The position numbers and the translations under genes were made by a program. This document shows positions 7,918 to 45,827 of a stretch of 64,000 nucleotides of DNA, in pieces. Positions within the stretch are counted from its first letter, which is position 1. Each line of letters opens with the position of its first letter. The notes beneath the pieces are model-generated. The model did not search any database. It worked only from the letters and a program-made list of their open reading frames with translations, and was not told the origin of the DNA. The stretch is taken from positions 62,001 to 126,000 of the forward strand of contig NZ_ATYR01000006.1 of assembly GCF_000427785.1 (NCBI RefSeq), written 5' to 3'. Source of the stretch: Massilia alkalitolerans DSM 17462 (lineage in GTDB: Bacteria; Pseudomonadota; Gammaproteobacteria; Burkholderiales; Burkholderiaceae_D).

Positions 7918-8574
7918 ATGGAACCACGTAGCGATATGAAAGAACACGAGCACCACGGCCACGCACACGGCCACGACCATGAACATGGCCACTTGCAGCA
8001 GCACCCGGGCCAGGGCCACATCGCCCCGCGCCGTCCCTCGCGCCAGGAACTGCAGCACATCCAGGGCTGGGGCGCCGACCTCGACCGCAAGAACCGGCCC
8101 GGCGTGCCGATGGAACGCACCCCGCCGCGCTTCATCAACCAGCCGGAAGGCGATCCGCCGCAGCAGCAGGAGAAGGTGGAAATTCTCGTATCGAGCGAGC
8201 GTCCGGGCATCACCCAGGTGTTCGGCACGGTGCAGCCGCCCTCGGGCCTGTCGGGCATGATCCGGCGCCTGGCCTTCAAGGCCAGCGAGAACGACATTCG
8301 CCACTGGCTGCTGTTGCTGCTGGCCGACCGCGTCAACATGGTCGAAGGCATTGCCGACGACCTGGCGCACGGGAAGGTCCCGAACGTGCTGGGCGAGATG
8401 GGCATCAAGGCTGAGATGAAGCACAACCCGGCCGGGCTGGCCAAGAAGGTGGCGATCACCGCCGCCGTGGTGGGCACGGCGGTCTACCTGATGAAGCGGC
8501 GCGACCGCGACGACGATCGCCACGAGCGCAGCCGCTACGAGGGCGACCGTTACGGCGAGCGTTATTACCGCTGA
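7918..8574 (+). CDS. His-rich N-terminus membrane-associated hypothetical protein
   Basis: A 218-residue protein I do not recognise. Residues 9-33 hold about eleven His residues in a HxH/HGH pattern (EHHGHAHGHDHEHGH), like metal-binding tails of metal transporters and chaperones. The middle is soluble, with IRHWLLLLLADRVNMVEGIADDL as an amphipathic helix. Near the C-terminus KKVAITAAVVGTAVYLM (about 179-195) is a single transmembrane segment, followed by a highly charged tail (RDRDDDRHER). It starts 9 bases after the alcohol dehydrogenase gene with GAGGAG ahead of the ATG. A role in handling zinc for that enzyme is possible but is only inference from the neighbour. Confidence 0.72.
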   Translation: MEPRSDMKEHEHHGHAHGHDHEHGHLQQHPGQGHIAPRRPSRQELQHIQGWGADLDRKNRPGVPMERTPPRFINQPEGDPPQQQEKVEILVSSERPGITQVFGTVQPPSGLSGMIRRLAFKASENDIRHWLLLLLADRVNMVEGIADDLAHGKVPNVLGEMGIKAEMKHNPAGLAKKVAITAAVVGTAVYLMKRRDRDDDRHERSRYEGDRYGERYYR

Positions 8575-8599
8575 GTCTTACGCGCTGCGATGAGCAGGG

Positions 8600-8625
8600 G
8601 CAGCAGGGCCGGGTGGGCCTGCTGC
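8600..8625. terminator. Hairpin between convergent genes
   Basis: An 8-bp stem GCAGCAGG/CCTGCTGC with a 10-base GC-rich loop lies 26 bases after the His-rich gene and 7 bases after the end of the PepSY gene on the other strand. There is no clear T-run, so it may act as a weak or Rho-assisted stop for either strand. Confidence 0.4.
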
Positions 8626-8631
8626 TTGCGC

Positions 8632-9882
8632 TCAACCGTAGCGTGGATCGTTCAGTACGGGCGACGCCTCGGTCTGCACCATCACCGGTGCGGGGCGGGG
8701 CGCTGTCACGTTGGCGGGCGCCTTGCGCTTGGCCGGCTTGCGGCGGAACTTGATCCAGACCACCAGACCGGTAATAAAGAACAGCAGGGGCGTGAGGCCC
8801 ACCACGGTGATCAGGATGCGCCCGGCCAGGCCAAACGCTTCGCCTGTGTGCAGCGGGAACAGGGTGCTGACGAACCAGTCGCCGCCGCGCGCGGTGAGCG
8901 GGTCGATGGCGCGGACTACCTCGCCGCTGCCGGCATCCACGCTCACGCGGGTGGCCCCTGCACCGTGGCGCAGTTCGCCCGGCTGGCGCACCCGCACTTC
9001 ATAGGGCTGCTCCGGCTTGGCCGGGATGCCGATGCGCGATACCCGGCCTTCAGGGTAGCGCGCCTGCGCCGCCGCCATCGCCGCGCCGGCGTCGATGCGC
9101 GGAACGTCCGTCAAGCTGGTATTCAGCGCCTTCTCGTTCTTGGTCAGCGGCGCGACCGCGCGGATGGCCGGCGTCACCCAGTCCGGCGCGTTGAAATACA
9201 CGCCCGAGAAGGCCAGCACCAGCAGCACCGGCGCCACGTAGAAGCCGGCGGCCCGGTGCAGCTGGAAGTTGAACTTGGGCCAGTTGCTGCCGCGCCGTAC
9301 CGAGATCGCATGCCAGAAGGCGGATAGCGTCATCTTCGGCCACCACACCACGATACCCGTCAGGGTCAGGAGCATCAGGGCCAGGCCCTGCACGGCAATG
9401 ACGATCTTGCCCGCTTCGCCCGCCATCAGGTAGCGGTGCAGGTGGAACAGGGTCGGCATCAGGAGCGGCCGCGACAGGCCGGCTTCGCCCCAGTTGCGCT
9501 CGCCCAGGATCGCCAGGTTGCTTGGGTCGACCATGACCTGGCGCGTCACGCCCTGCGTCCAGCTGGAATCCGGCTTCTGCGGCCGGTACCAGGCGACGTA
9601 CACGTCCCCATGCACTCCCGGCAGGAACAGGGTATCGGGCCGTCCATAGCCCGGCTCATCCTGCAAGCGCGCCATCACCGCCGCCACCTGGGCCGGGGCA
9701 GGGCGGGCTTCAAGGCCGGCGGTGGCGCCTGCGGGTGGGGCCACCCGCAGCAAACCGGGGTTGAGCCAGGCATCGAGTTCATGGCGCCAGCCGATGACGG
9801 TGCCGGTAAGCCCTTGCAGGACCAGGATGGTGCCGAAAATCAGGCCGGCCCAGAGGTGAACGGTGCGGATGAGCGGTTTCAT
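8632..9882 (-). CDS. PepSY-associated transmembrane protein (PiuB-type ferric reductase-like)
   Basis: A 416-residue inner-membrane protein of the PepSY_TM family. TM segments are near residues 9-30, 140-165, about 190-215 and 345-375, with two large periplasmic parts carrying PepSY-like sequence. Its start MKPLIRTVHLWAGL is the usual first helix with its conserved His. Members encoded beside siderophore receptors are thought to reduce or release iron at the inner membrane (FpvG/PiuB type). It diverges from a TonB-dependent receptor gene, with two Fur-like boxes in the shared 103-base gap, so both are probably repressed by Fur with iron. Confidence 0.87.
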   Translation of the reverse strand: MKPLIRTVHLWAGLIFGTILVLQGLTGTVIGWRHELDAWLNPGLLRVAPPAGATAGLEARPAPAQVAAVMARLQDEPGYGRPDTLFLPGVHGDVYVAWYRPQKPDSSWTQGVTRQVMVDPSNLAILGERNWGEAGLSRPLLMPTLFHLHRYLMAGEAGKIVIAVQGLALMLLTLTGIVVWWPKMTLSAFWHAISVRRGSNWPKFNFQLHRAAGFYVAPVLLVLAFSGVYFNAPDWVTPAIRAVAPLTKNEKALNTSLTDVPRIDAGAAMAAAQARYPEGRVSRIGIPAKPEQPYEVRVRQPGELRHGAGATRVSVDAGSGEVVRAIDPLTARGGDWFVSTLFPLHTGEAFGLAGRILITVVGLTPLLFFITGLVVWIKFRRKPAKRKAPANVTAPRPAPVMVQTEASPVLNDPRYG

Positions 9883-32322: not shown

Positions 32323-32967
32323 TTACGCTAATTTCAATCCGGAACGTGTCAGGAGCAGCACCTGGTCGGCCATGGCGGCCGCGGCGTGGGAGTGGGTGAC
32401 CATGATGGCGCCGGCGCCACTTAGACGGGTTTCGCGGCGCAGCAGCTCGAGGATGCCCCCGGCGGTCTCGGGGTCGAGGTTGCCGGTCGGTTCATCCGCC
32501 AGCAGCAGGGCGGGGCGGTGCACCAGCGCGCGGGCGATCGCCACGCGCTGCAGTTCGCCGCCGGACAGCTGGCGCGGGAAGTCGTTGCCGCGCCCGGCCA
32601 GGCCGACCGCGGCCAGCATCTCGTCGGCGCGCCCGTCGGGTGTGCGGTTCAGCAGCAGCGGCAGCGCCACGTTCTGGCGCAGCGTCAGGTGCGGCAGCAC
32701 GTGGAAGGCCTGGAAGATGAAACCCATGCGGGTGCGGCGCAGGCGGGTCGCCGCGGCGTCGTCGAGCGCCGACATCGGCGTGCCGTCCACGATCACCTGG
32801 CCCGCGTCGGGCGCGTCCAGGCCCGCGATGATGTTCAGCAGGGTCGACTTGCCGACCCCCGATTCGCCCATGATGGCCACGAACTCGCCGGCGCGGAAGG
32901 CATGCGACAGCTGCGACAGCACCGTGCGGCCGCCATAGGACTTGTTCAGGTTGTCGAGGACGAGCAT
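32323..32967 (-). CDS. ABC transporter ATPase (LolD/MacB-like), end of selenate-type transport operon
   Basis: A 214-residue ATPase with Walker A GESGVGKST (34-42), signature LSGGE (about 138), Walker B LLLADEP (about 157) and the switch His in VTHSH. GNLDPETA after Walker B is typical of LolD/FtsE/MacB-class ATPases. It starts 19 bases after the second permease gene and so ends an operon that already has a PhnC-like ATPase. Two ATPases for two permeases may mean a heteromeric pump, or this one may serve another permease. Which is right cannot be told from sequence alone. Confidence 0.85.
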   Translation of the reverse strand: MLVLDNLNKSYGGRTVLSQLSHAFRAGEFVAIMGESGVGKSTLLNIIAGLDAPDAGQVIVDGTPMSALDDAAATRLRRTRMGFIFQAFHVLPHLTLRQNVALPLLLNRTPDGRADEMLAAVGLAGRGNDFPRQLSGGELQRVAIARALVHRPALLLADEPTGNLDPETAGGILELLRRETRLSGAGAIMVTHSHAAAAMADQVLLLTRSGLKLA

Positions 32968-32986
32968 GATATTCCTGACTGTAGGT

Positions 32987-33778
32987 TCAGCGGGTCAGCG
33001 TACGGCGCAGCGCGAAGCTGAGGGCATCCACGCTGGCCACCAGCAGCAGCATCGCGATCACGACGGTGGCGGCGCTCTGCATCTGGAACAGCGACAGGTG
33101 GTACTTCAGCATCTGGCCCAGCCCGCCGGCGCCGACCACGCCCAGCACGGCGGCCGCGCGGATGTTGTTCTCCCAGCGGTACAGGGTATAGGACAGCATC
33201 TGCGGCAGGGCCTGCGGCAGGGTAGCGTACAGGAAGGCGCTCAGGGGCGCGGCGCCGTTGGTGCGCAGGCTCGCTTCCGGCAGCGGCTCGACGTTCTCGA
33301 GGGCGTCGGCGAACAGGCGCCCCAGCACGCCGCTGGTGTGCGCCGCCAGCGCCAGGGTGCCGGCGAAGGGGCCGAGGCCGGCCGCGACCAGCAGCAGCGC
33401 GGCCCACACCAGTTCCGGGATCGAGCGCAGGATGTTCAGCAGCGCCCGGGTCAGGCCGCGCAGCACCCGGCCGAGGCGGCCGGCCGCGGGCAGGGCCAGC
33501 AGCATGCCGCCGATCACCGCCAGCAAGGTGCCGACCAGGGACATCGCCAGGGTCTCCCACAGGGCGCCGGCGGTCTTGGCGAGGAAGGCGCGGCCGGTCT
33601 CGGGCGGCGTGAAGCCGGCCAGGAATTCCGCGCCGGACGCCAGCGCCTCGGGCGTGAAGAAGGCCGACCATTGCAGCGGCAGCGAGGCAAAGCTCGCCGC
33701 CACCAGGGCGGCCAGCGCCAGCAGCAGCACCGGGGTGCCCCAGCTGCGCGGCGGCGGTGGCGGCAGCTGCGGCGTCAT
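32987..33778 (-). CDS. PhnE-like ABC permease, second of pair (putative selenate uptake)
   Basis: A 263-residue inner-membrane permease with about six TM helices. The EAA-loop region is seen as TLPQALPQMLSYTLYRWENNIRAA (about 188-211) and VVGAGGLGQML. The family signature RSIPELVWAALL (about 118-129) is that of PhnE-type permeases. Its start overlaps the end of the first permease gene by 4 bases (ATGA), showing translational coupling. With the first permease it would form the membrane channel for an oxyanion; selenate is inferred from the neighbourhood. Confidence 0.87.
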   Translation of the reverse strand: MTPQLPPPPPRSWGTPVLLLALAALVAASFASLPLQWSAFFTPEALASGAEFLAGFTPPETGRAFLAKTAGALWETLAMSLVGTLLAVIGGMLLALPAAGRLGRVLRGLTRALLNILRSIPELVWAALLLVAAGLGPFAGTLALAAHTSGVLGRLFADALENVEPLPEASLRTNGAAPLSAFLYATLPQALPQMLSYTLYRWENNIRAAAVLGVVGAGGLGQMLKYHLSLFQMQSAATVVIAMLLLVASVDALSFALRRTLTR

Positions 33779-34596
33779 CCCAGCCTCCGGCGCAGCAGCT
33801 TGGAGACCAGGTCGGCCAGCGCCACCAGCAGCACGAACATGATCAGCATGGTGGACACTTCGCCGCCCGCCATCATCTTGGTCGACTCTTCCATGCGCTG
33901 GCCCAGGCCGCCGGCGCCGACGAAGCCCATCACCGCCGAGCCGCGAATCGCGCATTCCCAGCGGTAGACGGTATAAGACACCAGTTCGGCGCTCGATTCC
34001 GGCAGGGCGCCGTACAGCAGGGCCGGGAGGCGTCCGCTGCCGTTGGCCAGCAGGATGTCGGTCGCATGGGCACTGGATGATTCCAGGATCTCGGCATAGA
34101 CTTTGGCCAGCATGCCCGAATAGGTCAGGGCGATGGCCAGCACCCCGGCGGTCGGCCCGAGGCCGACGATGCGCACGAACAGCAGCGCCCACACCAGTTC
34201 GGGAACGCTGCGCAGCAGCACCAGCACCCAGCGCAGCAGCTGGCGCACCAGCGAAGCCAGCGGGTGCATGCGTCCGGTGCCGAGGCGCGAAATCGACAGG
34301 CGCTCGCTGATGAGCATGGTGGCCGGAATCGCGCCCAGCAGGGCCAGCGAGAGGCCGGCGGTGGCGATCGCCACGGTCTGCCAGGTCTCGCGCAGCACCA
34401 TGGCCAGGAACTCGCCCTCGAGCGAGGGACGCAGGAAGTCGGACAGGAAGTGCCAGGCCGCCGCCAGGCTTTGCGGGTCGAACAGCAGCCAGGGCTTGAA
34501 CTCGCTCGCCGCCAGCATCGGCCACAGGAGCAGCAGGCAGACGAGCGTGGCGGTGACGCGGCCGCGCCAGGCCGGGTCCGGATGGGCGGCCTTCAT
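33775..34596 (-). CDS. PhnE-like ABC permease, first of pair (putative selenate uptake)
   Basis: A 273-residue permease with about six TM helices and the same landmarks as its partner: RSVPELVWALLFV (about 128-140), ALPESSAELVSYTVYRWECAI and FVGAGGLGQRM. The two permeases are paralogues, with perhaps a third of positions alike by eye. The start codon overlaps the stop of the upstream ATPase gene by one base (TGATG). Phosphonate, phosphite and selenate transporters share this fold, so substrate comes from context only. Confidence 0.87.
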   Translation of the reverse strand: MKAAHPDPAWRGRVTATLVCLLLLWPMLAASEFKPWLLFDPQSLAAAWHFLSDFLRPSLEGEFLAMVLRETWQTVAIATAGLSLALLGAIPATMLISERLSISRLGTGRMHPLASLVRQLLRWVLVLLRSVPELVWALLFVRIVGLGPTAGVLAIALTYSGMLAKVYAEILESSSAHATDILLANGSGRLPALLYGALPESSAELVSYTVYRWECAIRGSAVMGFVGAGGLGQRMEESTKMMAGGEVSTMLIMFVLLVALADLVSKLLRRRLG

Positions 34597-35423
34597 CAGA
34601 AGCAGGCGCCGACGGCGATCCGCTCGGGTGACTCGTGCGGAGGCTGCGGGTGCGCCTCGACCGCCTCGTTCTCGTACAGGGCGGCGATCATGGCGTCGCT
34701 CACCGTGCTGGTGGCGGCGTCGAACACGATGCGCCCGGCGCGCAGGCCGACCAGGCGCGGGAAGTGGGCGCGCGCCATCTCGACCTGGTGCAGGCTGCAC
34801 ACCAGGCTAGCCTTGCGCGCCGAGGCTTCCTGCTGCAGCGTGGCCAGGGTATGGCGGGCCAGGGCCGGGTCGAGCGCGGAGATCGGCTCGTCGACCAGGA
34901 AGGCTTCGGCGCTGGAGAGCAGCAGGCGCGCCAGGCCGCAGCGCTGGCGCTCGCCGCCCGACAGGCGGTCGACGCGCGCATACAGCTTGTCGCCCAGGCC
35001 GAAGCGCGCCAGGGCCGCGTGGGCGGCGTCCGGATCGCTCGGGCGCACCAGCGAGGCGAAGGCCTGCCACAGGCTCATGTGGGGCAGGCGCGCGGCCAGC
35101 ACCGCGGTGACCACGCGCTGGCGCGGCGGCAGCGGCGGGGTCTGCGGCGCCAGGAACAGGCGCGCGCGCAGGCGGTGGCGTGCCGATTGCGGCAAGGCCC
35201 ACGGGTCTTGTCCGAAGACGGAGAAGCCGCCCACGTCCGAGGACTGCGGGCGGTGGGCGCAGGCGAGGGTGGCGAGCAGGGTGGTCTTGCCGGCGCCGGA
35301 AGGGCCGATCAGGGCCAGCTGCTCGCCGGGCGCGACGTCCAGGTCGAGTTCATGGAGGGCGGCCGGCGCCTGCGCCGTTGCCGCCAGGTGGCGTACCGTG
35401 AGTTTCTCGAGCCGGAAAGTCAT
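34596..35423 (-). CDS. PhnC-like ABC ATPase (putative selenate uptake)
   Basis: A 275-residue ATPase with Walker A GPSGAGKTT (40-48), signature LSGGERQR (about 153-160), Walker B AFLVDEPISALD (about 172-183) and switch His in CSLHQVEMA. HQVE after the H-loop is typical of PhnC. It energises the two permeases encoded downstream. It begins 21 bases after the binding-protein gene and overlaps the next start by one base. Confidence 0.87.
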   Translation of the reverse strand: MTFRLEKLTVRHLAATAQAPAALHELDLDVAPGEQLALIGPSGAGKTTLLATLACAHRPQSSDVGGFSVFGQDPWALPQSARHRLRARLFLAPQTPPLPPRQRVVTAVLAARLPHMSLWQAFASLVRPSDPDAAHAALARFGLGDKLYARVDRLSGGERQRCGLARLLLSSAEAFLVDEPISALDPALARHTLATLQQEASARKASLVCSLHQVEMARAHFPRLVGLRAGRIVFDAATSTVSDAMIAALYENEAVEAHPQPPHESPERIAVGACF

Positions 35424-35444
35424 CGCGCAGCAGCCAGCTCCGGA

Positions 35445-36341
35445 TTACTTCAGCAGGCCGGCGTTGCGCGCCGCGGCCTCGATCGCGCCGTAGTTCGCGG
35501 TCCTGGTCGGGACGAACTTGGTGGCGCGCTGCAGGTCCAGGATCTGCTTGCCTTCCGGGGTCGAGGCATCCAGCGCCAGGAAGGCGTCGGTGATCTTCTT
35601 CTGCAGGGCCGGGCTCATGTCGCTGCGCACGGTCCAGTTGTAGTCGTAGTAGCCCGGGGTGGTGTAGAACACGCGCACCACTTTGGGGTCGACCTTCCTG
35701 GTTTCCACCAGCTTGTCCCACACCGAGATGTTCAGGGCGCCGGCGTCGACCTTGCCGCCCGCGACAGCGGCCACGGTGGCGTCATGCGCGCCCGAGAAGG
35801 CGACGCGCTTGAGGTCGGTGTCCGGGTTGATCTTCGCGCCCAGCAGGAAGGAACGCGGCATCAGGTGGCCCGAGGTCGACGACTCCGAACCGAAGGACAG
35901 GGTCTTGCCTTTCAGGTCTTCCAGCTTGTTGATGTCCGGCTTGGTGGTGATGAAGACCGAGCGGAACTTCTCGTCCTCGGCGCGCTGCACCAGCGGCACG
36001 ACCTGGCCCTTGCTGCGCACGTTCGCCTGCACGAAGGTGAAGCCGCCGAACCAGACCATGTCGATCTTGCGGTTGATCAGGCCTTCGACCGAGGCCGCGT
36101 AGTCGGTCACCGGAGTGAACTCGACCTTCAGGCCGGTTGCCTTGGACAGGTACTTGCCCAGCGGCTCGAACTTGCGCTGCAGCTCGGTCGGCGCTTCGTC
36201 GGGGATGGCCGAGACGCGCAGCACACCCGGCGTGTTCTGGGCATAGGCGCCGCCGGCGGCGGCAAAGCTCAAGCTCACCGTAGCGGCGGCGAACATGGTT
36301 TTCAGGACACGCGAAGACGAGAACGAAGTCATGGTTGGCAT
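35445..36341 (-). CDS. PhnD-like binding protein, putative selenate ABC transporter
   Basis: A 298-residue periplasmic binding protein. The signal peptide (1-34, ending GAYA) is followed by a PhnD fold with VSAIPDEAPTELQRKFEPLG (44-63), FTPVTDYAASVEGL (75-88), DMVWFGGFTFVQA (94-106), and SSTSGHLMPRSFLL with the anion-binding Ser/Thr cluster. I recall this PhnD branch as the one annotated putative selenate ABC transporter binding protein, found beside selD genes; here selD and senA/senB lie within 6 kb. This is the main reason to propose selenate. The ATG at 36341 could instead be 36332. The gene diverges from egtD. Confidence 0.85.
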   Translation of the reverse strand: MPTMTSFSSSRVLKTMFAAATVSLSFAAAGGAYAQNTPGVLRVSAIPDEAPTELQRKFEPLGKYLSKATGLKVEFTPVTDYAASVEGLINRKIDMVWFGGFTFVQANVRSKGQVVPLVQRAEDEKFRSVFITTKPDINKLEDLKGKTLSFGSESSTSGHLMPRSFLLGAKINPDTDLKRVAFSGAHDATVAAVAGGKVDAGALNISVWDKLVETRKVDPKVVRVFYTTPGYYDYNWTVRSDMSPALQKKITDAFLALDASTPEGKQILDLQRATKFVPTRTANYGAIEAAARNAGLLK

Positions 36342-36422
36342 TCTTATTAAGTAATGGAAAGTGGTGAACCGGGGACGTCACGGCAGCACGGCTGCGGGAA
36401 GCGGCAAAAATCCGGAATCCGC

Positions 36423-36428
36423 TATTAT
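36423..36428 (+). promoter_or_regulatory. -10-like box in the gap between transporter and egtD
   Basis: TATTAT in the 132-base divergent region between the binding-protein start (36341) and egtD (36474). No strong -35 is seen. The gap is a likely site for selenium- or oxidative-stress-responsive control of both operons, but no known operator is recognised. Confidence 0.3.
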
Positions 36429-36473
36429 GGCAAAAACAGCAACTGAACCCTATGCCATGGCGCATCCGGCGGT

Positions 36474-37469
36474 ATGGCGGCACGAATGATAACGCTTATG
36501 CACATCTCCTGCACGCAAGACCGCCCGCGCGCCGCCAATGCCCATGTGGCGGACGAGCTGCACGCCGGCCTCCAGGCCCCTGGCGCCTGGATCTCGCCCA
36601 AGTTCCTGTACGACGCGCTCGGCTCGAAGCTGTTCGAGGCCATCTGCGAACTGCCCGAGTATTACCCGACCCGCACCGAGGCCGCCATTTTCGCCCGCCA
36701 CGGGGCCGAGATCGCGCGCGTGGCCGGCCCTGGGGCGACGCTGGTCGACCTGGGCGCCGGCAACTGCGCCAAGGCGGCGGCGCTGTTCCCGCTCTTGAAC
36801 CCCGCCCAGTACGTGGCGGTCGACATCTCGACCGGCTTCCTGTGCGAGGCCCTCGAGCGCCTGCGCCAGCGCTTCCCGCACATCGACATGGAAGCGCTGG
36901 GCATGGACTTTTCCAGCCGCTTCGAGCTGCCCGCGCAGGTACGCGCCGCGCGCCGCCTGTTCTTCTACCCCGGCTCCTCGATCGGCAACTTCACCCCGGA
37001 CGAGGCCCTGGGTTTCCTGCGCCGCCTGCGCGCCCAGTGCGGCGACGATGGCGGCGTGCTGATCGGCATCGACCTGGCCAAGGACAAGGCCACCCTCGAC
37101 GCCGCCTATGACGACGCCCTCGGGGTCACCGCGGCCTTCAACCTGAACGTGCTGCGCCACGTGAACCACCTGGTCGGGGCCGACTTCGACATCCGCGCCT
37201 GGCGCCACCACGGCTTCTACCAGGCCGAGCGCGGCCGCGTCGAGATGCACCTGGAGGCGGTGCGCCGCCAAGAGGTGCACTGGAACTGCGGCGGCAAGGC
37301 CTGCTCGCGCGTGTTCGAGCCGGGCGAGCGCATCCACACCGAGAACAGCTACAAGTACCAGCAGGCCGATGCGATCGCCTTGCTGGAGCGTTCCGGGTTC
37401 GAGGCCACCCGCGTGTGGACCGATCCGCAGCGCTGGTTCGCGGTGATCCACGCACAGGCGATTCACTGA
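36474..37469 (+). CDS. egtD: EgtD, histidine N-alpha-trimethyltransferase (hercynine synthase)
   Basis: A 331-residue SAM-dependent methyltransferase that adds three methyls to the amino group of L-histidine, giving hercynine. YDALGSKLFEAICELPEYYP (44-63, a hallmark of EgtD) opens the domain, followed by VDLGAGNCAKAAALF as SAM loop, FFYPGSSIGNFTPDEA and DLAKDKATLDAAYDD, all conserved in EgtD. Three in-frame ATGs (36474, 36486, 36498) exist and none has a clear ribosome site, so the first residues are uncertain. Its stop shares a base with the senA start (TGATG), so the two proteins are made together; hercynine is the substrate of the next enzyme. Confidence 0.92.
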   Translation: MAARMITLMHISCTQDRPRAANAHVADELHAGLQAPGAWISPKFLYDALGSKLFEAICELPEYYPTRTEAAIFARHGAEIARVAGPGATLVDLGAGNCAKAAALFPLLNPAQYVAVDISTGFLCEALERLRQRFPHIDMEALGMDFSSRFELPAQVRAARRLFFYPGSSIGNFTPDEALGFLRRLRAQCGDDGGVLIGIDLAKDKATLDAAYDDALGVTAAFNLNVLRHVNHLVGADFDIRAWRHHGFYQAERGRVEMHLEAVRRQEVHWNCGGKACSRVFEPGERIHTENSYKYQQADAIALLERSGFEATRVWTDPQRWFAVIHAQAIH

Positions 37470-38695
37470 TGGGCATCGGGCAGCGCGAAGACCTCCTGCA
37501 CGCCTTCGACCGGGTGCGCCGCCGCTCGCTCGAGATCGCCGCGCCCTTATCTAGCGAGGACTGCTGCGCACAGTCGATGCCGGACGCCAGCCCCGTCAAG
37601 TGGCACCTGGCGCATACCACCTGGTTCTTCGAGACCTTCATCCTCGAAGCGTACGAGCCCGGCTTTGCGCCTTTCCACCCGGCCTTCCGGGTGCTGTTCA
37701 ACTCCTATTACAACGGCATCGGCGCCAAGCATCCGCGCCCCTGGCGCGGCCTGCTCACCCGGCCCGCGCTGGACGAGGTGCGCGCCTACCGCCAGGACGT
37801 CGACGGCCGCATCGCCAGGCTGCTGGCGGCAGGCACCGGGCCTGAGGTCGCCAGGCTGCTCGAACTCGGGCTGCAGCACGAGCAGCAGCACCAGGAACTG
37901 ATGCTTACCGATCTCAAGCACCTGCTGGCCCAGAACCCGCTGTACCCGGCCTATTCGCCGCAGGAGATGGAGGCCGGCATGGCGCCGGAACCGACTGCCT
38001 GGATCGAGTACGACGGCGGCCTGGCCGAAATCGGCTACGGCGGCAGCGGCTTCTGCTTCGACAACGAGCTGCCGCGTCACCGCACCTACGTCGCACCCTT
38101 CGAGCTGGCTTCGCGCCTGGTCACCAATGGCGAGTACCTGGAGTTCATCCGGGCCGGCGGCTACCGCGATCCCTCCCTGTGGCTGGCCGAAGGCTGGGAC
38201 CGGGTATGCAGCGGCGAAATCCTGCACCCTCTCTACTGGCTAGCATCCGACGACGGCGCCTGGAGCGAGTTCACCCTGCACGGGGTGCAGGCGCTCGACC
38301 CGGCGCGCCCGGTCACCCATATCTCGCTGTACGAGGCCGACGCCTATGCGCGCTGGCGCGGCGCGCGCCTGCCGACCGAGGCCGAGTGGGAATTCGCCGC
38401 GCGCCAGGCCTCGCTCGCCGGCGGCGCCCTGCATCCGGAAGCGGCGGAAGGCGACGGCCTGCTGCAGATGTTCGGGGCCTGCTGGCAGTGGACCAGCAGC
38501 AGCTACGCGCCTTACCCCGGCTATGCGCCGGCCGCCGGCGCCATCGGCGAATACAACGGCAAGTTCATGGTCAACCAGTACGTACTGCGCGGTTCCTCCT
38601 GCGCCACGCCCGGTGGCCATGCGCGCGCCAGCTACCGCAACTTCTTCCCGGCCGGGGCGCGCTGGCAGTTCACCGGGATCAGGCTGGCCCGATGA
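37469..38695 (+). CDS. senA: EgtB-like sulfoxide/selenoxide synthase, probably selenoneine synthase SenA
   Basis: A 408-residue iron enzyme of the EgtB family with a DinB-like N-terminal domain and a C-terminal FGE-sulfatase domain (about 190-408). The iron-site His residues are in KWHLAH (46/49) and QHEQQH (His137, His141), the EgtB pattern. The C-terminus shows NGKFMVNQYVLRGSSC and the SYRNFFPAGARWQFTGIRLA end. EgtB joins sulfur to hercynine; SenA uses a selenosugar instead. The SenA call rests on context: senB and selD homologues lie 3-6 kb away, a selenate-type transporter is divergent, and no egtA, egtC or egtE is seen. From sequence alone, plain EgtB remains possible. It overlaps the yihY start by 4 bases. 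Confidence 0.78.
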   Translation: MGIGQREDLLHAFDRVRRRSLEIAAPLSSEDCCAQSMPDASPVKWHLAHTTWFFETFILEAYEPGFAPFHPAFRVLFNSYYNGIGAKHPRPWRGLLTRPALDEVRAYRQDVDGRIARLLAAGTGPEVARLLELGLQHEQQHQELMLTDLKHLLAQNPLYPAYSPQEMEAGMAPEPTAWIEYDGGLAEIGYGGSGFCFDNELPRHRTYVAPFELASRLVTNGEYLEFIRAGGYRDPSLWLAEGWDRVCSGEILHPLYWLASDDGAWSEFTLHGVQALDPARPVTHISLYEADAYARWRGARLPTEAEWEFAARQASLAGGALHPEAAEGDGLLQMFGACWQWTSSSYAPYPGYAPAAGAIGEYNGKFMVNQYVLRGSSCATPGGHARASYRNFFPAGARWQFTGIRLAR

Positions 38696-39627
38696 CGCGG
38701 CGCAGGAGCTGGCGCGAGCGCCTGCTGGACCAGCGCGCCAATGCCTGGATCCTGGCGCACCCGCTCAACTTCAGCCTGCAGGTGATCCGGGGCTTTCGCG
38801 CCAACCAGGGCCTGCTGCTGGCCGGCGCTGTCGCCTATTATGCGCTGCTGTCGATCGTGCCCTTCCTGATGCTGGCGGTGGTGGCGCTGTCGCACTTCAT
38901 CGAGCAGGCCGAGCTGCTCGAGACCCTGCAGCGCTACCTGGGCATGCTGGTGCCGGGACAGTCGCAGCCGATCGTGGACGAGGTGGCGCACTTCCTCGAA
39001 AACCGCGAGCTGATCACCTGGGTGCTGGGCGGCACCATGCTGTTCTTCAGTTCGCTCGCCTTCACGGTGCTGGAGAACGCGATGAGCGTGATCTTCATCC
39101 ACCGGGTATCGGTCCGGCGCCGCCACTTCCTGGTCTCAGCCGTGCTCCCGTACTGCTACATCCTGGCACTGGGAGTCGGCGTCATGATCGTGACCCTGGT
39201 GGCCGGCGCGCTCGAAGTGCTGGGCAAGGAGAGCATCTGGCTGTTCGGCGTCCAGTGGTCGCTGGGCGGCGTCTCGGGCGCCTTGCTCTACCTGCTCGGG
39301 CTGTTCGGCGAAATCCTGGTACTGACCTCGATCTACCTGGTGATGCCGGTAGGCCGCCTGTCGCTGTGGCATGCGCTGATCGGCGGCGTCAGCGCGGCGC
39401 TGCTGTGGGAGCTCGCACGGCGTGTGCTGGTCTGGTATTTCTCGACCCTGTCGCAGGTGAACCTGGTGTACGGCTCGATGACGACGGCGATCGTGGTCAT
39501 GTTCAGCCTCGAGATCGCGGCCACGCTGCTGCTGCTCGGCGCCCAGGTGATCGCTGAATACGAACGCGTCGGGCACGGACTGGTCGACCGGCCGCCGGAG
39601 CCGATGCATACCGAGCCGCCTGCCTGA
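38692..39627 (+). CDS. yihY: YihY/BrkB-family inner-membrane protein
   Basis: A 311-residue membrane protein with about six TM helices, of the family once misnamed RNase BN. The motif GLLLAGAVAYYALLSIVPFLM (about 42-62) is the conserved first span with its Tyr/Ser/Pro residues. SQVNLVYGSMTTAIVVMFSLEI near the C-terminus is the other conserved block. Function of the family is unclear; transport or lipid roles have been proposed. Its start overlaps the senA stop (ATGA), so it is the third gene of the egtD-senA unit, a link that may be functional or accidental. Confidence 0.88.
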   Translation: MTRRRSWRERLLDQRANAWILAHPLNFSLQVIRGFRANQGLLLAGAVAYYALLSIVPFLMLAVVALSHFIEQAELLETLQRYLGMLVPGQSQPIVDEVAHFLENRELITWVLGGTMLFFSSLAFTVLENAMSVIFIHRVSVRRRHFLVSAVLPYCYILALGVGVMIVTLVAGALEVLGKESIWLFGVQWSLGGVSGALLYLLGLFGEILVLTSIYLVMPVGRLSLWHALIGGVSAALLWELARRVLVWYFSTLSQVNLVYGSMTTAIVVMFSLEIAATLLLLGAQVIAEYERVGHGLVDRPPEPMHTEPPA

Positions 39628-39759
39628 GGCGCCTACGCTGCGCGGGTTGCTCTTGCGCCCGGTCAATTTCTTTATTGAAGGCAATGGCACAGTATGGGCT
39701 TGCGCGATCCGCTTGGCTTGGCTCAAGCGCGCGCAAGTTCCATTGAATCGGGAGATGCC

Positions 39760-39960
39760 ATGAGCCAAACAGTCGCAATCGTCCTTCCGCTACCGGTCCT
39801 GCTTGCGCTGGTGGTGCTGCTGTTCGTGTTGCTGGTGCTGAGCGCAGTCGTGCTGTCGCTGAATGCTTCGGCGCCGCTCCAGTTCCCGTCGCCGCCAGGC
39901 GAGAAGAGCGGCCTCCCTGGCGTCGATGATGCCGACGGGCTCCCGGCCGCGCAGTCCTGA
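39760..39960 (+). CDS. Small single-span membrane protein
   Basis: A 66-residue protein with one strong TM helix (residues 5-35, VAIVLPLPVLLALVVLLFVL and onward) and a short polar tail rich in Pro and Asp. GGGAGAT lies 3-4 bases before the ATG. It sits between yihY and the glycosyltransferase on the same strand and may be co-transcribed. No domain is recognised. Confidence 0.6.
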   Translation: MSQTVAIVLPLPVLLALVVLLFVLLVLSAVVLSLNASAPLQFPSPPGEKSGLPGVDDADGLPAAQS

Positions 39961-40011
39961 CCCCATCCCGCGGCTGTCGGCCGCAGCCAGGCTTCGGCTA
40001 CACTGCCGGGC

Positions 40012-41229
40012 ATGGCTCACTTCTACCTTTGCTGGGAACTCGGCGGCGGCCTCGGCCACGCCGGCCGCCTCAAGTCGATCGCGCTGCCGCTGCGCGCGCG
40101 CGGCCACCGGGTCAGCTTCGTGCTGCGCGACCTGGTGCTCACGCGGCGCCTGCTGCTCGACCCCCGGCTCGACGGCATTGCGCGCCTGCAGGCGCCGGTC
40201 TGGCTGCACCGCACCGCCGGCCTGCCGCCGGAGGAAGCCAGCCTGGCCGAGATCCTGCTCGCCTGCGGCTACCTCGATGCGGACGCGCTGGCCGGCCTGT
40301 GCGAGGGCTGGCGCGGACTGTTCCGGCAAGGCAGCCCCGACCTGGTGATCGCGGATTACGCGCCCACCGCCATCCTGGCGGCGCGCAGCCTGGGCTTGCC
40401 CAGCGCGGCGCTCGGGCCGGGCTTCACGATGCCGCCCGCCGGCCAGCCCCTGCCGCCGCTGCGCAGCTGGGAACCGCCGCAGCCGGCGCGGCTGCGCGCT
40501 GGCGAGGCGCGCCTGCTGGACAGCGCCAACCGGGTGCTGGCCGCGCTCGGCGCCGCGCCGCTGGCGCGCGGCGCCGAACTGCTGCTGGGGGACCATCCGC
40601 TGCTGTGCACCTGGCCCGAACTCGACCACTTCGCGCGCGGCGGTAGCGGCCCCTGGCTGGGCCCGAACCTGCCGCAGCCGGCCGGATGCGCACCCGCATG
40701 GCCGGCCGGCGAGGGCAGGCGGGTGTTCGCCTACCTGCGCCGCGGGGTGCCAGAAACTGCCGAGGTGCTGGGGGCGTTGCTGCGGCAGGGCTGCCGGGTG
40801 CTGTGCTACATGCCCGAGCTGGCTGGCGGCGCGCCGGCGCCGCTCGCGCATCCGCATCTGGCCTGGGCGCCGGGACCGGTCTCCTTGCCGGAGGCGCTGG
40901 CCGGCTGCGAGCTGGTGGTCAGTCACGCGGGCGAAGCCTTGAGCGCGCAGGCCCTGCTGGCCGGGCGGCCGCTCCTGATGCTGCCGCATACGACGGAAGG
41001 CTTCCTGATGGCGCGCCGCGTCGCGCAGCTGGGGGCGGGGATCAATGCGATGGAGCAGGCGCGTGCGCGCGACTGGGAGGCATTGGTGGAAAGCCTCCTG
41101 GGGCGGCCGGGCTACCGCGACGCCGCCGCGGCCTTTGCGCGGCGCTACGCGGGCTTCGATCCGCAGCGCCAGGCCGAGGCGCTGGCGGACCGGTTCGAGG
41201 CGCTGGCGGCCGCCAGGGGGAGAGTTTAA
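40012..41229 (+). CDS. MGT-like glycosyltransferase (UGT fold)
   Basis: A 405-residue protein of the two-domain GT-B fold. WELGGGLGHAGRLKSIALPL (9-28) is the acceptor-side Gly-rich loop with the catalytic-type His of UGT/MGT enzymes. DLVIADYAPTAILAARSLGL is the middle. The C-terminal donor region has CELVVSHAGEALSAQALLAG (the SHxG motif) then PLLMLPHTTEGFLMARR. It would transfer a sugar from a nucleotide donor to a small acceptor. The acceptor is unknown, but its place between senA and selD and the 4-base overlap of its end with the selD end invite a selenium-metabolite link. It is not the SenB homologue, which is the GT4-type protein encoded at 42283-43278. Confidence 0.8.
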   Translation: MAHFYLCWELGGGLGHAGRLKSIALPLRARGHRVSFVLRDLVLTRRLLLDPRLDGIARLQAPVWLHRTAGLPPEEASLAEILLACGYLDADALAGLCEGWRGLFRQGSPDLVIADYAPTAILAARSLGLPSAALGPGFTMPPAGQPLPPLRSWEPPQPARLRAGEARLLDSANRVLAALGAAPLARGAELLLGDHPLLCTWPELDHFARGGSGPWLGPNLPQPAGCAPAWPAGEGRRVFAYLRRGVPETAEVLGALLRQGCRVLCYMPELAGGAPAPLAHPHLAWAPGPVSLPEALAGCELVVSHAGEALSAQALLAGRPLLMLPHTTEGFLMARRVAQLGAGINAMEQARARDWEALVESLLGRPGYRDAAAAFARRYAGFDPQRQAEALADRFEALAAARGRV

Positions 41230-42281
41230 GCGACGCTGACGCGTGCAGCGCCTTCGCCCATGCGGCCGATCACGGCCGCATGCTCGAAACCTTCGCGGGC
41301 GAACAGCGCCAGTACCTCGTCCACGCTGGCCGGGTCGCAGGATACCAGGAGGCCGCCCGAGGTCTGCGGGTCGGTCAGCAGCGCGCGCTGGGCCGGCGTG
41401 ACGGCGGCGCCGAGGTCGACGTCCTTGCCGTAGGCATCCCAGTTGCGGCCTGAAGCGCCGGTGAAGAAACCGTCCTGGGCCAGCTGCAGCACGCCGGGCA
41501 GCAGCGGCACCTTGTCCATCTCGAGCGTGGCGGACAGCCTGGCGCCGCGCGCCAGTTCCAGCAGGTGGCCCAGCAGGCCGAAGCCGGTGACGTCGGTCAG
41601 GGCATGCACGCCCGGCATCTCGGCCAGCAGGCGGCCGGGCTTGTTCAGCTTGGTGGTATTGGCGATCATGGCTGCGTAGCCTTCTTCGCCCAGCGCATCC
41701 TTCTTCAGCGCGGCCGACAGCACGCCCACGCCGAGCGGCTTGCCGAGAACGAGCACGTCGCCGGCCCTGGCGTCGGCATTGCGCTTGATTTTGGACGGAT
41801 GCACCAGGCCCATCACCACCAGGCCGTAGATCGGCTCGACCGAGTCGATGGTATGGCCGCCGGCGATCGGGATGCCCGCGTCGGCGCAGGCCGACTCTCC
41901 GCCGCGGATGATCTGGCCGATGGTCTCGAGCGGCAGCTTGTTGACCGGCATGCCGACCAGGGCCAGGGCCATGATCGGGGTGCCGCCCATCGCGTACACG
42001 TCCGAGATCGCATTGGTCGCGGCGATGCGGCCGAAGTCGAAGGGATCGTCGACGATCGGCATGAAGAAGTCGGTGGTGGCGATCAGGGCCTGCTCGTCGT
42101 TGAGCTTGTAGACGGCGGCATCGTCGGCCGTCTCGATGCCGACCATCAGCTCCTTCGGCACCGGGAAACCGGCGGATTTGCTCAGGATTTCAGACAGCAC
42201 GCCGGGAGCGATCTTGCAGCCGCAGCCGCCGCCGTGCGAGAACGAAGTCAGTTTGATTGGTTGGTCAGTCGTCGTGCTCAT
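41226..42281 (-). CDS. selD: Selenophosphate synthetase (selenide, water dikinase)
   Basis: A 351-residue enzyme making selenophosphate from selenide and ATP. The flexible catalytic loop GGGCGCK (17-23) has Cys20 in the Cys/Sec position and Lys23 matching E. coli Cys17 and Lys20. TTDFFMPIVDDPFDFGRIAA and GGTPIMALALVGMP mark the PurM-like nucleotide site, and GFGLLGHLLELA and TDPQTSGGLL the C-terminal domain. It is a Cys form, not a selenoprotein. It starts one base after the senB stop (TAG-G-ATG), so the pair is translated together; in the selenoneine pathway this role is called SenC. No mnmH/selU or selAB is in the window. Confidence 0.94.
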   Translation of the reverse strand: MSTTTDQPIKLTSFSHGGGCGCKIAPGVLSEILSKSAGFPVPKELMVGIETADDAAVYKLNDEQALIATTDFFMPIVDDPFDFGRIAATNAISDVYAMGGTPIMALALVGMPVNKLPLETIGQIIRGGESACADAGIPIAGGHTIDSVEPIYGLVVMGLVHPSKIKRNADARAGDVLVLGKPLGVGVLSAALKKDALGEEGYAAMIANTTKLNKPGRLLAEMPGVHALTDVTGFGLLGHLLELARGARLSATLEMDKVPLLPGVLQLAQDGFFTGASGRNWDAYGKDVDLGAAVTPAQRALLTDPQTSGGLLVSCDPASVDEVLALFAREGFEHAAVIGRMGEGAARVSVA

Positions 42282-42282
42282 C

Positions 42283-43278
42283 CTAGTCTTTCGTGTTGGT
42301 GGTCGCGCCGGGCGCGTGAAGGAGCAGATTATCCACCAAGTCGCGCACCGCCGCTTGCTCGGCGCCAGGCAGGAACAGGGCGGCGCGGGCCGCGCACTGG
42401 CGCCGCAACAGGGCGTCGAATCCGCTGTCGCCGATGATCCGGTCGACCAGCCGGGCCAGCGCGGCCGCATCGCCCGGCGCGAAATAGCCGGCATAGTCCT
42501 CGCCCAGCATGCCGCGGTTGCCGTTGATGTCGGACGCCAGCACCGGCACGCCGCTGGTCACGGCTTCGATGATCACGTTGGCGCCGCCTTCCATGCGCGA
42601 GGTAATGGCCATCGCGTGGCAGCGTTTCAGGCGCTGGCGCGCGCTCCCGTGGGGCAGGGCGCCGAGCCAGCGGTAGCGCGGGTTGGCTGCCTGCGCCTCG
42701 AGGGCGGCCTGGCCCAGCTCGGGATCGAGCGCGCCACCGATGTGCAGCAGGCGCGCGGCGGGGTGGGTCACCATGCCGGCGGCGCGGATGAAGGTCAATG
42801 GATCCTTTTCCTCGCGCAGGTGGCCGACCATGCAGATGTCGGCGAAGCGCGCCTGCCCGCGGCGCGGGTACGGGCGCAGGCTCGGCGCCGACTGGTAGAT
42901 GACGCGCGCCCTGGCGCGCAGCGCCTCCGGCAGCAGGGCCAGGCCGGCCGGCTGCAGCAGGACCAGGGCGTGGGCGCGCTCGAGCGAGGCGCGGGCCGCG
43001 GCGTCCAGGGCGATGTCGCGGTACAGGTCGGTCCCTGTCAGCACCAGGATCGCCGGACGGCCGGGGTAGGAGTCGGCAAACGCGGCCAGGGAGGCGGCGG
43101 AACGGCGCGCATGCAGGGCGATCATCAGGTCGGGCGCCGGGTCGGACCCCGGCCAGGCGCCGGCGATGTCGACGCGGTGGACGGCGCGCAGGAAGCGCGC
43201 CCAACGGCTGGCGGTTTGCCAGTTGCCATTGTTCTCGCGCGCACTGGCGGGACTGACGATGAGGATGTGCTTGCGCAC
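42283..43278 (-). CDS. senB: Selenosugar synthase SenB (GT4-type glycosyltransferase)
   Basis: A 331-residue GT-B fold protein. HILIVSPASARENNGNWQTA (4-23) is the N-terminal acceptor loop, and TSRMEGGANVIIEAV (226-240) holds the E-x7-E motif (Glu230, Glu238) that binds the donor nucleotide-sugar. I recall this as the family formerly known only as a glycosyltransferase next to selD and now assigned as SenB, which makes a seleno-sugar from selenophosphate and a UDP-sugar. Adjacency with selD (1-base gap) and senA on the other side supports this. The GTG at 43278 has AGGAAG 5 bases upstream; a GTG two codons earlier lies too close to it. Confidence 0.82.
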   Translation of the reverse strand: MRKHILIVSPASARENNGNWQTASRWARFLRAVHRVDIAGAWPGSDPAPDLMIALHARRSAASLAAFADSYPGRPAILVLTGTDLYRDIALDAAARASLERAHALVLLQPAGLALLPEALRARARVIYQSAPSLRPYPRRGQARFADICMVGHLREEKDPLTFIRAAGMVTHPAARLLHIGGALDPELGQAALEAQAANPRYRWLGALPHGSARQRLKRCHAMAITSRMEGGANVIIEAVTSGVPVLASDINGNRGMLGEDYAGYFAPGDAAALARLVDRIIGDSGFDALLRRQCAARAALFLPGAEQAAVRDLVDNLLLHAPGATTNTKD

Positions 43279-43451: not shown

Positions 43452-45827
43452 ATGCTATTTCGCCAACTCCTGCTTGCCTTCGCCGCAGCCATCGCCCTCG
43501 TTGCCTGCGGCGGCAGCGCCGAAGATCCCGTACAGTCCGCCGGCATGGCGTCCACGCGCGCCAGCCTCGTCTCGGGGCAGCATGCGTTCCCTGGCATGCG
43601 CTGGGAGTACACGGTCGTGCGCACCGCCACGGGCTGGAACGTGGTCGACCTGGTCCGCGGTGGGGCGGTCACCGCGGTTCCCGCCAATGCGCGCCTGCGC
43701 TTCGCCGACAGTTCGCTGGCGCTCGACGTAGAAGGCATCGCCGGCCAGGTCTACCGCCTCTACCAGGCAGCGTTCGCGCGCATCCCGGACCAGGCCGGTG
43801 TGGGTTTCTGGATCGACGCCCTCGAGCGCGGTAGCTCGCTCGACGCGATCGCCGAGGGCTTCGTGGCCTCCGCCGAGTACCGCGGCATCTATGGCAGCAA
43901 TCCGTCCAACGCCCAGATCGTCGAGCGCTATTACCAGAACGTGCTCGGCCGTCCTGGCGAAGTGGCCGGCATCGCCTTTTGGCGCGGTGTGCTCGACCGT
44001 GGTGCGGCCACGCCGGCCTCGGTGCTGAAAGGCTTCAGCGAAAGCGCCGAGAACCAGGCGATGGTGCTGGTGGCGATCCAGAACGGCATCGCCTACCAGG
44101 AGCCAGGCATGGCCTATGTGCCGGTGGCGCGGCCCGGCGTCGACCGCAACGTCCCCCCCGGCAAGGTCGTGACCCTGGACGGCGGCGCGAGCAGCGTGGC
44201 GCCCGGTCGCAGCATCGCCTATGCATGGACCCTGCTGTCGAAGCCGGCCGGCAGCGCCGCCGTGCTGGCCATGTCCACCACCGCCACCCCGGCCTTCCTG
44301 GCCGACGTCGAGGGCAGCTATGAACTCGGCCTGACAGTCAGCGACGGCAGTGCAGCCAGTGCAATGGCGCGGGTGACCGTAAATGCCGCCTTGTGGCGCC
44401 CGGCCGAGGGACGGATGCCGGCCGGCGGCAATGCCGTGTACCTGGAAAGCGAGGCGGGCGACTACATCGGCGCCGGCAAGGCCTACCTGTACACCGGCGC
44501 CGACACGCTGTTCTCGGTCACCCCGATCGGCGCCGGCCTGCGCATCAACCTTACCGGCGACGAGAACTGGTCCGGCGAATTCGTGCCGCCCAACAGCCTG
44601 ACCCGGCTCCAGCCGGGCTACCACGGCAACCTGACCCGCTACCCCTTCCACAATCCGGTCCATGGCGGCCTGGCGTGGACCGGCGAAGGGCGCGGCTGCA
44701 ATACCCTGGCCGGCTGGTTCATCGTCGACAGCGTCACCTATGAAGGCAGCGTACTGAGCGCGATCGACCTGCGCTTCGAGCAGCGCTGCGAGGGCGGACA
44801 GACCGCCCTGCATGGCCGCGTTCGCTGGAGCGCGAACGGCAGCACGGCCGCTCCCAAGCCGGCGCCCGTGCCGGCCGGCCTGTGGACCCCGAGCGCATCG
44901 GCGCTGCCGGCCAGCGGCAACTACGTCTACCTGCAGAGCACCCAGGGCGACTACATCGGCGGCGGACGCACCTACACCTACACCGGCAGCAATGCCATGC
45001 TGAACATCGGCAGCAACAGTGCCCATCTGAAGGTAGGGGTGACCGGTGACGAGCAATGGAGCGGCGACTTCGCCGGCATGACCGGCATGACCCAGCTAGA
45101 GCCGGGCTACTACGGCGACCTGCAGCGCTACCCCTTCCACAACCCGGTGCGCGGCGGCCTGTCCTGGAGCGGCGAGGGCCGCGGCTGCAACCGGCTGCTG
45201 GGCTGGTTCGTGGTCGACAGCGTGAGCTACGTCGGCGGCAGCATGACGGCGCTGGAGATGCGCTTCGAGCAGCGCTGCGAGGGCGGCAGCAGCGCCTTGC
45301 GCGGCAAGATCAAGTGGCGCGCGGACGACAACACGGCGCCGCCGGGCCCGCTCAATCCGCCGCCGACCGGGCTGTGGACGCCCGCGGCGGGCGCGACGCC
45401 GGCGAGCGGCAACTTCGTTTACCTGAGCAGCATGCCGGGCGACTACATCGGCGGCGGCCTGACCCGCAGCTTTACCGATGCGAACGCGGTGCTGAAGGTG
45501 ACGGCGACCGGCGCGCGCCTGCAGGTCAGCGTGAACGGCGACAGCTGGTGGTCGGGCGACTTCGCGGGCATGAACACCCTGAGCCAGCTGCAGCCTGGCT
45601 ATTACGGCAACCTGCAGCGCTACCCCTTCCACAACCCGATCCGTGGGGGGCTGTCCTGGAGCGGCGACGGCCGCGGCTGCAATACCCTGAGCGGCTGGTT
45701 CGTGGTGGACAAGGTGAGCTACGTGCAGGACCAGCTGTCCGAGATCGACCTGCGCTTCCAGCAGAACTGCGAAGGCGGCAGCGCCGCGCTGCGCGGCAGG
45801 ATCCGCTGGAGCGCGGCGGCGCGCTGA
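43452..45827 (+). CDS. Lipoprotein with DUF4214 and three tandem unrecognised domains
   Basis: A 791-residue lipoprotein. The lipobox LVAC puts the lipid on Cys19. A DUF4214-type segment (about 95-210, VYRLYQAAFARIPDQAG and YYQNVLGRPGEVAG) is followed by a PKD/Ig-like domain (about 225-310). Three copies of a domain of about 150-160 residues start near residues 314, 477 and 641. Each copy has GDYIG, YPFHNP, GGL(A/S)W and GRGCN, then GWF and the end EGG-ALxGrixW, with two conserved Cys that could pair. I do not recognise this domain. Cell-surface or envelope binding is a guess. Confidence 0.82.
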   Translation: MLFRQLLLAFAAAIALVACGGSAEDPVQSAGMASTRASLVSGQHAFPGMRWEYTVVRTATGWNVVDLVRGGAVTAVPANARLRFADSSLALDVEGIAGQVYRLYQAAFARIPDQAGVGFWIDALERGSSLDAIAEGFVASAEYRGIYGSNPSNAQIVERYYQNVLGRPGEVAGIAFWRGVLDRGAATPASVLKGFSESAENQAMVLVAIQNGIAYQEPGMAYVPVARPGVDRNVPPGKVVTLDGGASSVAPGRSIAYAWTLLSKPAGSAAVLAMSTTATPAFLADVEGSYELGLTVSDGSAASAMARVTVNAALWRPAEGRMPAGGNAVYLESEAGDYIGAGKAYLYTGADTLFSVTPIGAGLRINLTGDENWSGEFVPPNSLTRLQPGYHGNLTRYPFHNPVHGGLAWTGEGRGCNTLAGWFIVDSVTYEGSVLSAIDLRFEQRCEGGQTALHGRVRWSANGSTAAPKPAPVPAGLWTPSASALPASGNYVYLQSTQGDYIGGGRTYTYTGSNAMLNIGSNSAHLKVGVTGDEQWSGDFAGMTGMTQLEPGYYGDLQRYPFHNPVRGGLSWSGEGRGCNRLLGWFVVDSVSYVGGSMTALEMRFEQRCEGGSSALRGKIKWRADDNTAPPGPLNPPPTGLWTPAAGATPASGNFVYLSSMPGDYIGGGLTRSFTDANAVLKVTATGARLQVSVNGDSWWSGDFAGMNTLSQLQPGYYGNLQRYPFHNPIRGGLSWSGDGRGCNTLSGWFVVDKVSYVQDQLSEIDLRFQQNCEGGSAALRGRIRWSAAAR
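44391..45827 (+). repeat. Three tandem coding repeats (about 490 bp each)
   Basis: The repeat units start at 44391, 44880 and 45372. At DNA level the blocks around TACCCCTTCCACAA and GGCTGCAA are nearly identical, suggesting duplication within the gene and possible copy-number variation between strains. Confidence 0.8.

Follow-up and report, generated by a model that had tools for sequence, protein, structure and literature searches.

A senB-selD pair without senA beside ergothioneine genes and an ABC importer in Massilia alkalitolerans

We analyzed a 64,000-nucleotide stretch of contig NZ_ATYR01000006.1 from the soil bacterium Massilia alkalitolerans DSM 17462, here called the window, in whose numbering gene coordinates are given. 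Between positions 32323 and 43278, the window carries a five-gene ATP-binding cassette (ABC) locus on the minus strand, the plus-strand genes egtD, egtB and yihY with overlapping ends, a plus-strand glycosyltransferase gene and the minus-strand pair senB-selD. In a first-pass annotation, the gene now called egtB had been named senA, and the locus had been read as one complete system from selenate to selenoneine. We found that the genome contains no SenA. The interpretation that we favor, with modest confidence, is that ergothioneine genes stand here beside a sen locus that lost senA, and that the selenosugar would be used independently of SenA. The strongest of the new results is the persistence of the senB-selD pair after senA in several lineages, with no decay visible; this suggests that selenosugars have a further, new use apart from selenoneine. 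The gene identities, the absence of SenA, the constraint on SenB and the conserved neighborhood were all computed from the sequences. The genes lie where the first-pass annotation had placed them, and the yihY and glycosyltransferase genes were confirmed between egtB and selD. The features are as follows.

32323 to 32967, minus strand: second ABC ATPase, the last gene of the transporter locus; LolD-like by its best model, with none over cut-off
32987 to 33778, minus strand: PhnE-like permease (TIGR01097, 241.9 bits, cut-off 216.7); overlaps the next permease gene
33775 to 34596, minus strand: second PhnE-like permease, below the PhnE cut-off (180.8 of 216.7)
34596 to 35423, minus strand: PhnC-like ABC ATPase, below the PhnC cut-off (173.7 of 266.1)
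35445 to 36341, minus strand: periplasmic binding protein (TIGR04553, 405 bits, cut-off 250); pocket residues as in the phosphate pocket of Synechococcus PhnD1 (7S6G)
36474 to 37469, plus strand: egtD, histidine N-alpha-methyltransferase, which makes hercynine (TIGR03438, 375.5 bits, cut-off 290.9)
37469 to 38695, plus strand: egtB rather than senA, by model scores, solved relatives and tree; type II ergothioneine sulfoxide synthase
38692 to 39627, plus strand: yihY/BrkB-family membrane protein gene, overlapping egtB
40012 to 41229, plus strand: glycosyltransferase with an EryCIII-like C-terminal domain, by model match; between yihY and selD
41226 to 42281, minus strand: selD (senC), selenophosphate synthetase (NF002098, 548 bits, cut-off 299)
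42283 to 43278, minus strand: senB, selenosugar synthase (TIGR04348, 409 bits, cut-off 300)

Identity of the EgtB-like gene and absence of SenA

The protein encoded at 37469-38695 (408 amino acids) scored 563 bits against the EgtB model TIGR03440, whose cut-off is 360, and 394 bits against the SenA model NF041186, whose cut-off of 420 was not reached. Its best solved relatives were type II EgtB enzymes (8qf6, 6qki and 6o6l) at 455 bits over nearly the full length, and SenA followed at 108 bits. In a 45-row tree, the protein grouped with the type II EgtB 8qf6 at 100/100 support, and the 24 SenA rows and the solved SenA fell in the other half, apart from it; that half also contains the long-branched type I EgtB and OvsA, whose placements are unsure. 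On model scores, solved relatives and tree placement, the identification as SenA was rejected. The profile search and tree had been set beforehand as the test of the name senA, and they placed the protein firmly in the EgtB clade.

Type II EgtB uses cysteine as its substrate. It is well supported that egtD and egtB, which have one base in common, are ordinary ergothioneine genes, predicted to make ergothioneine. The difference from the solved type II EgtB enzymes is that in this genus the gene adjoins selenium genes.

An FGE-sulfatase search of the window's own genome returned only the 37469-38695 gene (in two pieces) and one 769-amino-acid frame of unrelated length; it found no OvsA-like gene either. 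The SenA model likewise gave no match over cut-off in this genome. Among the 62 genomes of the Massilia/Telluria group that form our genus set, in which SenA calls are model matches over cut-off, the same model matched 37 genomes at 464-530 bits, and EgtB scored 409 bits or less in all 62 (the EgtB match in G048 being a fragment).

In the closest relative, genome G060, whose EgtB is 95% identical, senA is flanked by a kinase gene and an ABC gene (L146). The flanks of this site match the window genome at 89 and 92% on one contig, and the site there is empty, with 200 bp (L171, 4483-4684) against 1,362 bp with senA inside in G060 (L146, 4804-6167). Since the empty site lies inside a 452-kb contig, an assembly gap is not the explanation for the absence of SenA from the window genome. 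In genome G053, senA adjoins the same ABC gene as in G060, which favors loss in the window lineage over gain in G060. The number of synonymous substitutions per synonymous site (dS) between G060 and G053 was 0.81 for SenA, 0.37 for EgtB and 0.49 for SenB; SenA looks older than the split between these genomes, with transfer also possible. Because SenA is absent, the published route cannot yield selenoneine: SelD, SenB and EgtD of the pathway drawn in the first-pass annotation are present, but its final enzyme is lacking.

SenB and SelD with and without SenA

The names given earlier to SenB, SelD and EgtD were borne out by family models, all over cut-off. The best solved matches of the window SenB were assayed SenB enzymes (8k5u at 287 bits; 8jjn, 8jjq and 8fbx at about 274 bits), and the protein has, at aligned places, the equivalents of N20, T23, K158 and E231 as reported in PMC10891094. 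By homology to these solved and assayed enzymes, the window SenB is predicted to synthesize a selenosugar from selenophosphate and a uridine diphosphate (UDP)-sugar. Its motif EGGANV, in place of EGGAHV, was considered as a mark of the SenA-less state and rejected, as it occurs in genus SenB proteins with and without SenA (44 of 48; the other four do not match the pattern, and at least three of them are partial).

One base separates senB from selD. Since SelU is present in the window genome, over cut-off as in 60 of the 62 genus genomes, SelD has a function apart from SenB, and no conclusion on selenoneine follows from finding it. SelA was found in 20 of the 62 genomes and not in the window genome. 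The arrangement resembles the selenoneine cluster senA-senB-senC of Variovorax paradoxus in that senB adjoins selD (senC) and the SenB residues are kept, and differs from it in that SenA is absent from the genome and egtD-egtB and an ABC importer are nearby. In Limnohabitans and relatives (L056, L057, L063, L077 and others), the selD that adjoins senB forms the C-terminal part of a long fusion protein, of 768-785 amino acids in L057 and L077, whose N-terminal part resembles an oxidoreductase.

Across the genus, senB was over cut-off in 44 of the 62 genomes and in pieces in four more, being broken within the gene in G037 and cut at contig ends in G042, G048 and G055. All 37 genomes with SenA have senB (34 full, three cut at contig ends), and 14 genomes have neither gene. 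The remaining 11 of the 48 senB genomes lack SenA, 10 of them with a full-length senB: G000 (the window genome), G010, G013, G018, G029, G032, G037, G044, G045, G049 and G050. While senA stands beside senB in 22 of the 37 SenA genomes, it stands alone elsewhere in 15; these solo genes fall into two separate clades, of 12 and three members, and occur in differing contexts. A tree covering 57 of the 62 genomes required 10 presence/absence changes for SenA, three for senB and three for the transporter. The state of senB without SenA required nine changes, eight of them forced by starred branches, and the SenA-less trio G010, G045 and G050 forms a 100/100 clade.

The neighborhood that joins the EgtB-like gene to senB and selD is conserved in relatives, as the first-pass reading of the locus had required. 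In the SenA-less loci examined, the neighbor of senB is mostly a DEAD-box helicase gene, from which senB is separated in the window by a gene at 43452-45827. No common new enzyme gene was found at the former place of senA in L013, L014, L015, L018 and L037, and likewise none beside senB in the shorter flanks of L097, L100, L110, L111, L113 and L115. The senB gene of G037, the one SenA-less genome assembled in a single contig, lies in two frames (L103, G037:C1:2855000-2865500, 8227-9205), by decay or sequencing error.

We then compared SenB selection using the ratio of nonsynonymous (dN) to synonymous substitution rates by NG86, a simple method, in pairs with a SelD dS under 1; the pairs share branches and are not independent. 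The median SenB dN/dS was 0.379 in 45 SenA-less pairs, 0.404 in 320 mixed pairs and 0.401 in 496 SenA pairs, and the ratio of SenB to EgtB dN was 1.54, 1.51 and 1.50, respectively. On single branches, SenB dN/dS was 0.25 for the window and 0.28 for its SenA-bearing sister G060, 0.17 for G044 against 0.23 for its comparison branch, and 0.38 for G032 against 0.35. Inside the SenA-less trio, the values were 0.20-0.31. Relaxation of SenB after SenA loss was thus not seen in pairs or on single branches. Since SenB is under normal purifying selection without SenA, we infer a SenA-independent use of the selenosugar.

Possible uses of the selenosugar

In the favored interpretation, EgtD and type II EgtB make ergothioneine, and SelD would provide selenophosphate, which SelU elsewhere in the genome also needs. 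SenB would convert selenophosphate and a UDP-sugar into the selenosugar, which may serve as a store or donor of reduced selenium or as the precursor of another selenometabolite. The adjacent ABC system would import a small oxyanion.

Several points weigh against this interpretation. The constraint on SenB amounts to an absence of visible relaxation and nothing beyond that, given the shared branches and the simple method. Both the transporter and senB occur in 26 genus genomes. Among the six of these assembled in at most 10 contigs, SenA is present in five, and the other is G037 with its broken senB. The remaining 20 drafts split into 10 with SenA and 10 without, and some SenA absences, the window's own excepted, could be assembly gaps. 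In an order-wide set of 220 genomes, TIGR04348 matched at 1e-50 or better in 70, with 63 over cut-off, and 16 of the 70 had no SenA- or EgtB-grade match at the same bar, below which OvsA-like enzymes could fall. Nine of these 16 loci were examined (L175-L177 and L179-L184); seven have no selD within 11-12 kb, and most carry another motif, the typical NNGNWQT being found among those seven in G247 only. Judged from these loci, TIGR04348 may take in some enzymes unrelated to selenium metabolism as well. The other two loci have selD. One of them, in the complete genome G129, speaks for the interpretation in a second genus: it keeps selD-senB, its SenB carries the usual motif, and the SenA model gives no match in this genome at 1e-50, while a congener, G173, has adjacent senA and senB. 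In the other, in G104, selD is paired with a TIGR04348 gene that has a different motif.

Finally, SenA turnover is fast, with solo genes, two clades and indications of transfer or rapid change, and SenB might owe its survival solely to the repeated loss and return of SenA. It is possible, though we consider it doubtful, that SenA is an accessory, often lost and regained, that SenB and SelD persist until it returns, and that the window strain is between states, its selenosugar having no special use. The 10 changes for SenA against three for senB on the tree agree with this, as do the contexts and two clades of solo senA, the dS between G060 and G041 (0.76 for SenA against 0.37 for EgtB and 0.38 for SenB), the broken senB of G037 and the loss of both genes in 14 of 62 genomes. 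However, SenB showed no relaxation on SenA-less branches or inside the SenA-less trio, and every SenA genome retains senB (37 of 37, three partial).

It is unlikely that EgtB does double duty, joining the selenosugar to hercynine so that selenoneine is still made. EgtB and SenA belong to one superfamily, and egtD and egtB share a locus with senB and selD in nearly all relatives examined; but EgtB is present in 62 of 62 congeners, including the 14 without senB, and the window protein groups at 100/100 with type II EgtB, the cysteine users. In the EgtB alignment, no column was clearly tied to SenA loss, and none divides the 11 senB genomes without SenA from the remaining 46 (largest frequency difference 0.61); G129 keeps selD-senB with neither a SenA- nor an EgtB-grade match at 1e-50. 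That the locus is one complete selenate-to-selenoneine system is very improbable with no SenA in the genome, even though all other named parts are present and the transporter, egtD, senA, senB and selD occur in one stretch elsewhere (L056, L063, L082, L189 of G064 and L188 of G110).

A selenosugar is also used in the ovoselenol pathway, for which the window genome has no OvsA-like gene by the search described above. This pathway (OvsA; 8ux5 and 8u41) is the second known selenometabolite route, and the accessible part of a 2026 review names selenoneine and ovoselenol as the only new bacterial selenometabolites (PMC13188914). Our literature search, which covered few subscription papers, found no paper on SenB without SenA and none on selenium binding by the transporter family described below.

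A second TIGR04348 subfamily has NGNAHTA in place of NNGNWQT (L175 of G104, L184 of G148, L049 and L053); its gene lies beside selD in G104 and beside an efflux-pump operon in L049 and L053. SenB relatives of 41-46% identity occur in Amycolatopsis (L089, L091 and L092) and in a metagenome-assembled genome labelled Phycisphaerae (L084), with no SenA or SelD match in the flanking stretch examined.

The ABC importer

The five-gene locus had been annotated as a PhnCDE-type transporter of the branch linked to selenate. The ABC locus and its family stand, but the selenate label is weak, since a solved phosphate-binding protein passes the same model. TIGR04553 is of the type 'hypothetical equivalog' and bears the NCBI name 'putative selenate'; Synechococcus PhnD1 (7S6G) passes it at 338 bits, over the cut-off of 250, and PtxB (5o2j) does not pass, at 162 bits. 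The closest solved binding proteins are PhnD1 proteins of the PhnCDE systems of marine picocyanobacteria (7S6G, 5LQ5 and 5LQ8). The window protein is 43% identical to 7S6G over 256 aligned residues, and 11 of 11 residues of the phosphate site and cap, as given in the accessible part of PMC10284923, in which 7S6G was solved with phosphate, are identical. In an alignment of 61 rows including the window protein, with some genomes present twice, Y44, S123-S126 and H156 are invariant. PMC10284923 and PMC5700983 contain no word beginning with 'selen'. The window importer differs from PhnCDE in that it adjoins selenium genes and has two permeases and two ATPases. The 'selenate' name appears unsafe, or PhnD1 has a putative selenium role; in either case caution is due with a name applied to a protein whose solved relative binds phosphate.

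Selenite is pyramidal like phosphite, and selenate is shaped like phosphate, so the pocket could suit either. We infer that the cargo is a small trigonal or tetrahedral oxyanion, likeliest selenite or selenate because of the gene neighbors, with phosphate or phosphite possible. The importer would then be a testable candidate for a bacterial selenium importer; according to the accessible part of the 2026 review, a specific high-affinity transport system for selenium has yet to be identified in prokaryotes (PMC13188914).

On the other hand, the transporter may import phosphate or phosphite and have no selenium role, its location being a historical accident, and we give this alternative appreciable weight without preferring it. 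The passage of phosphate-bound PhnD1 through TIGR04553 and the identity of all 11 pocket residues point that way. So does the distribution within the genus, where none of the 22 genomes with adjacent senA and senB has the transporter and 10 genomes without senB do. Against it, the transporter adjoins sen or selD genes in several orders in other genera: it stands directly beside senA in Ramlibacter (L080 and L083, senA then transporter), and in L185 and L186 (senB-selD-transporter) and L187 (senA-selD-transporter) it follows selD on the same strand. Order-wide, TIGR04348 is present in 31 of 51 transporter genomes and in 39 of 169 others, counts that ignore kinship. The binding protein was found in the flanks of 21 of 80 senB loci, flanks being at most 10 kb and often less. 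For an association between transporter and SenA, there were too few independent pairs for a signal.

A bolder proposal, which we put forward tentatively, is that SenB and SelD form a stand-alone, third selenium small-molecule route, separate from selenoneine, selected in several lineages and fed by a dedicated PhnD1-type importer of selenium oxyanions. In that case, selenium oxyanions might also be a cargo of the puzzling PhnD1 of marine picocyanobacteria, itself over the cut-off of TIGR04553.

The second ATPase gene (32323-32967) is found near egtD in relatives without the rest of the transporter (L026, L028 and L031-L033). The yihY gene adjoins egtB in most relatives examined, and the glycosyltransferase gene at 40012-41229 occupies the same place in part of the genus, both with and without senA.

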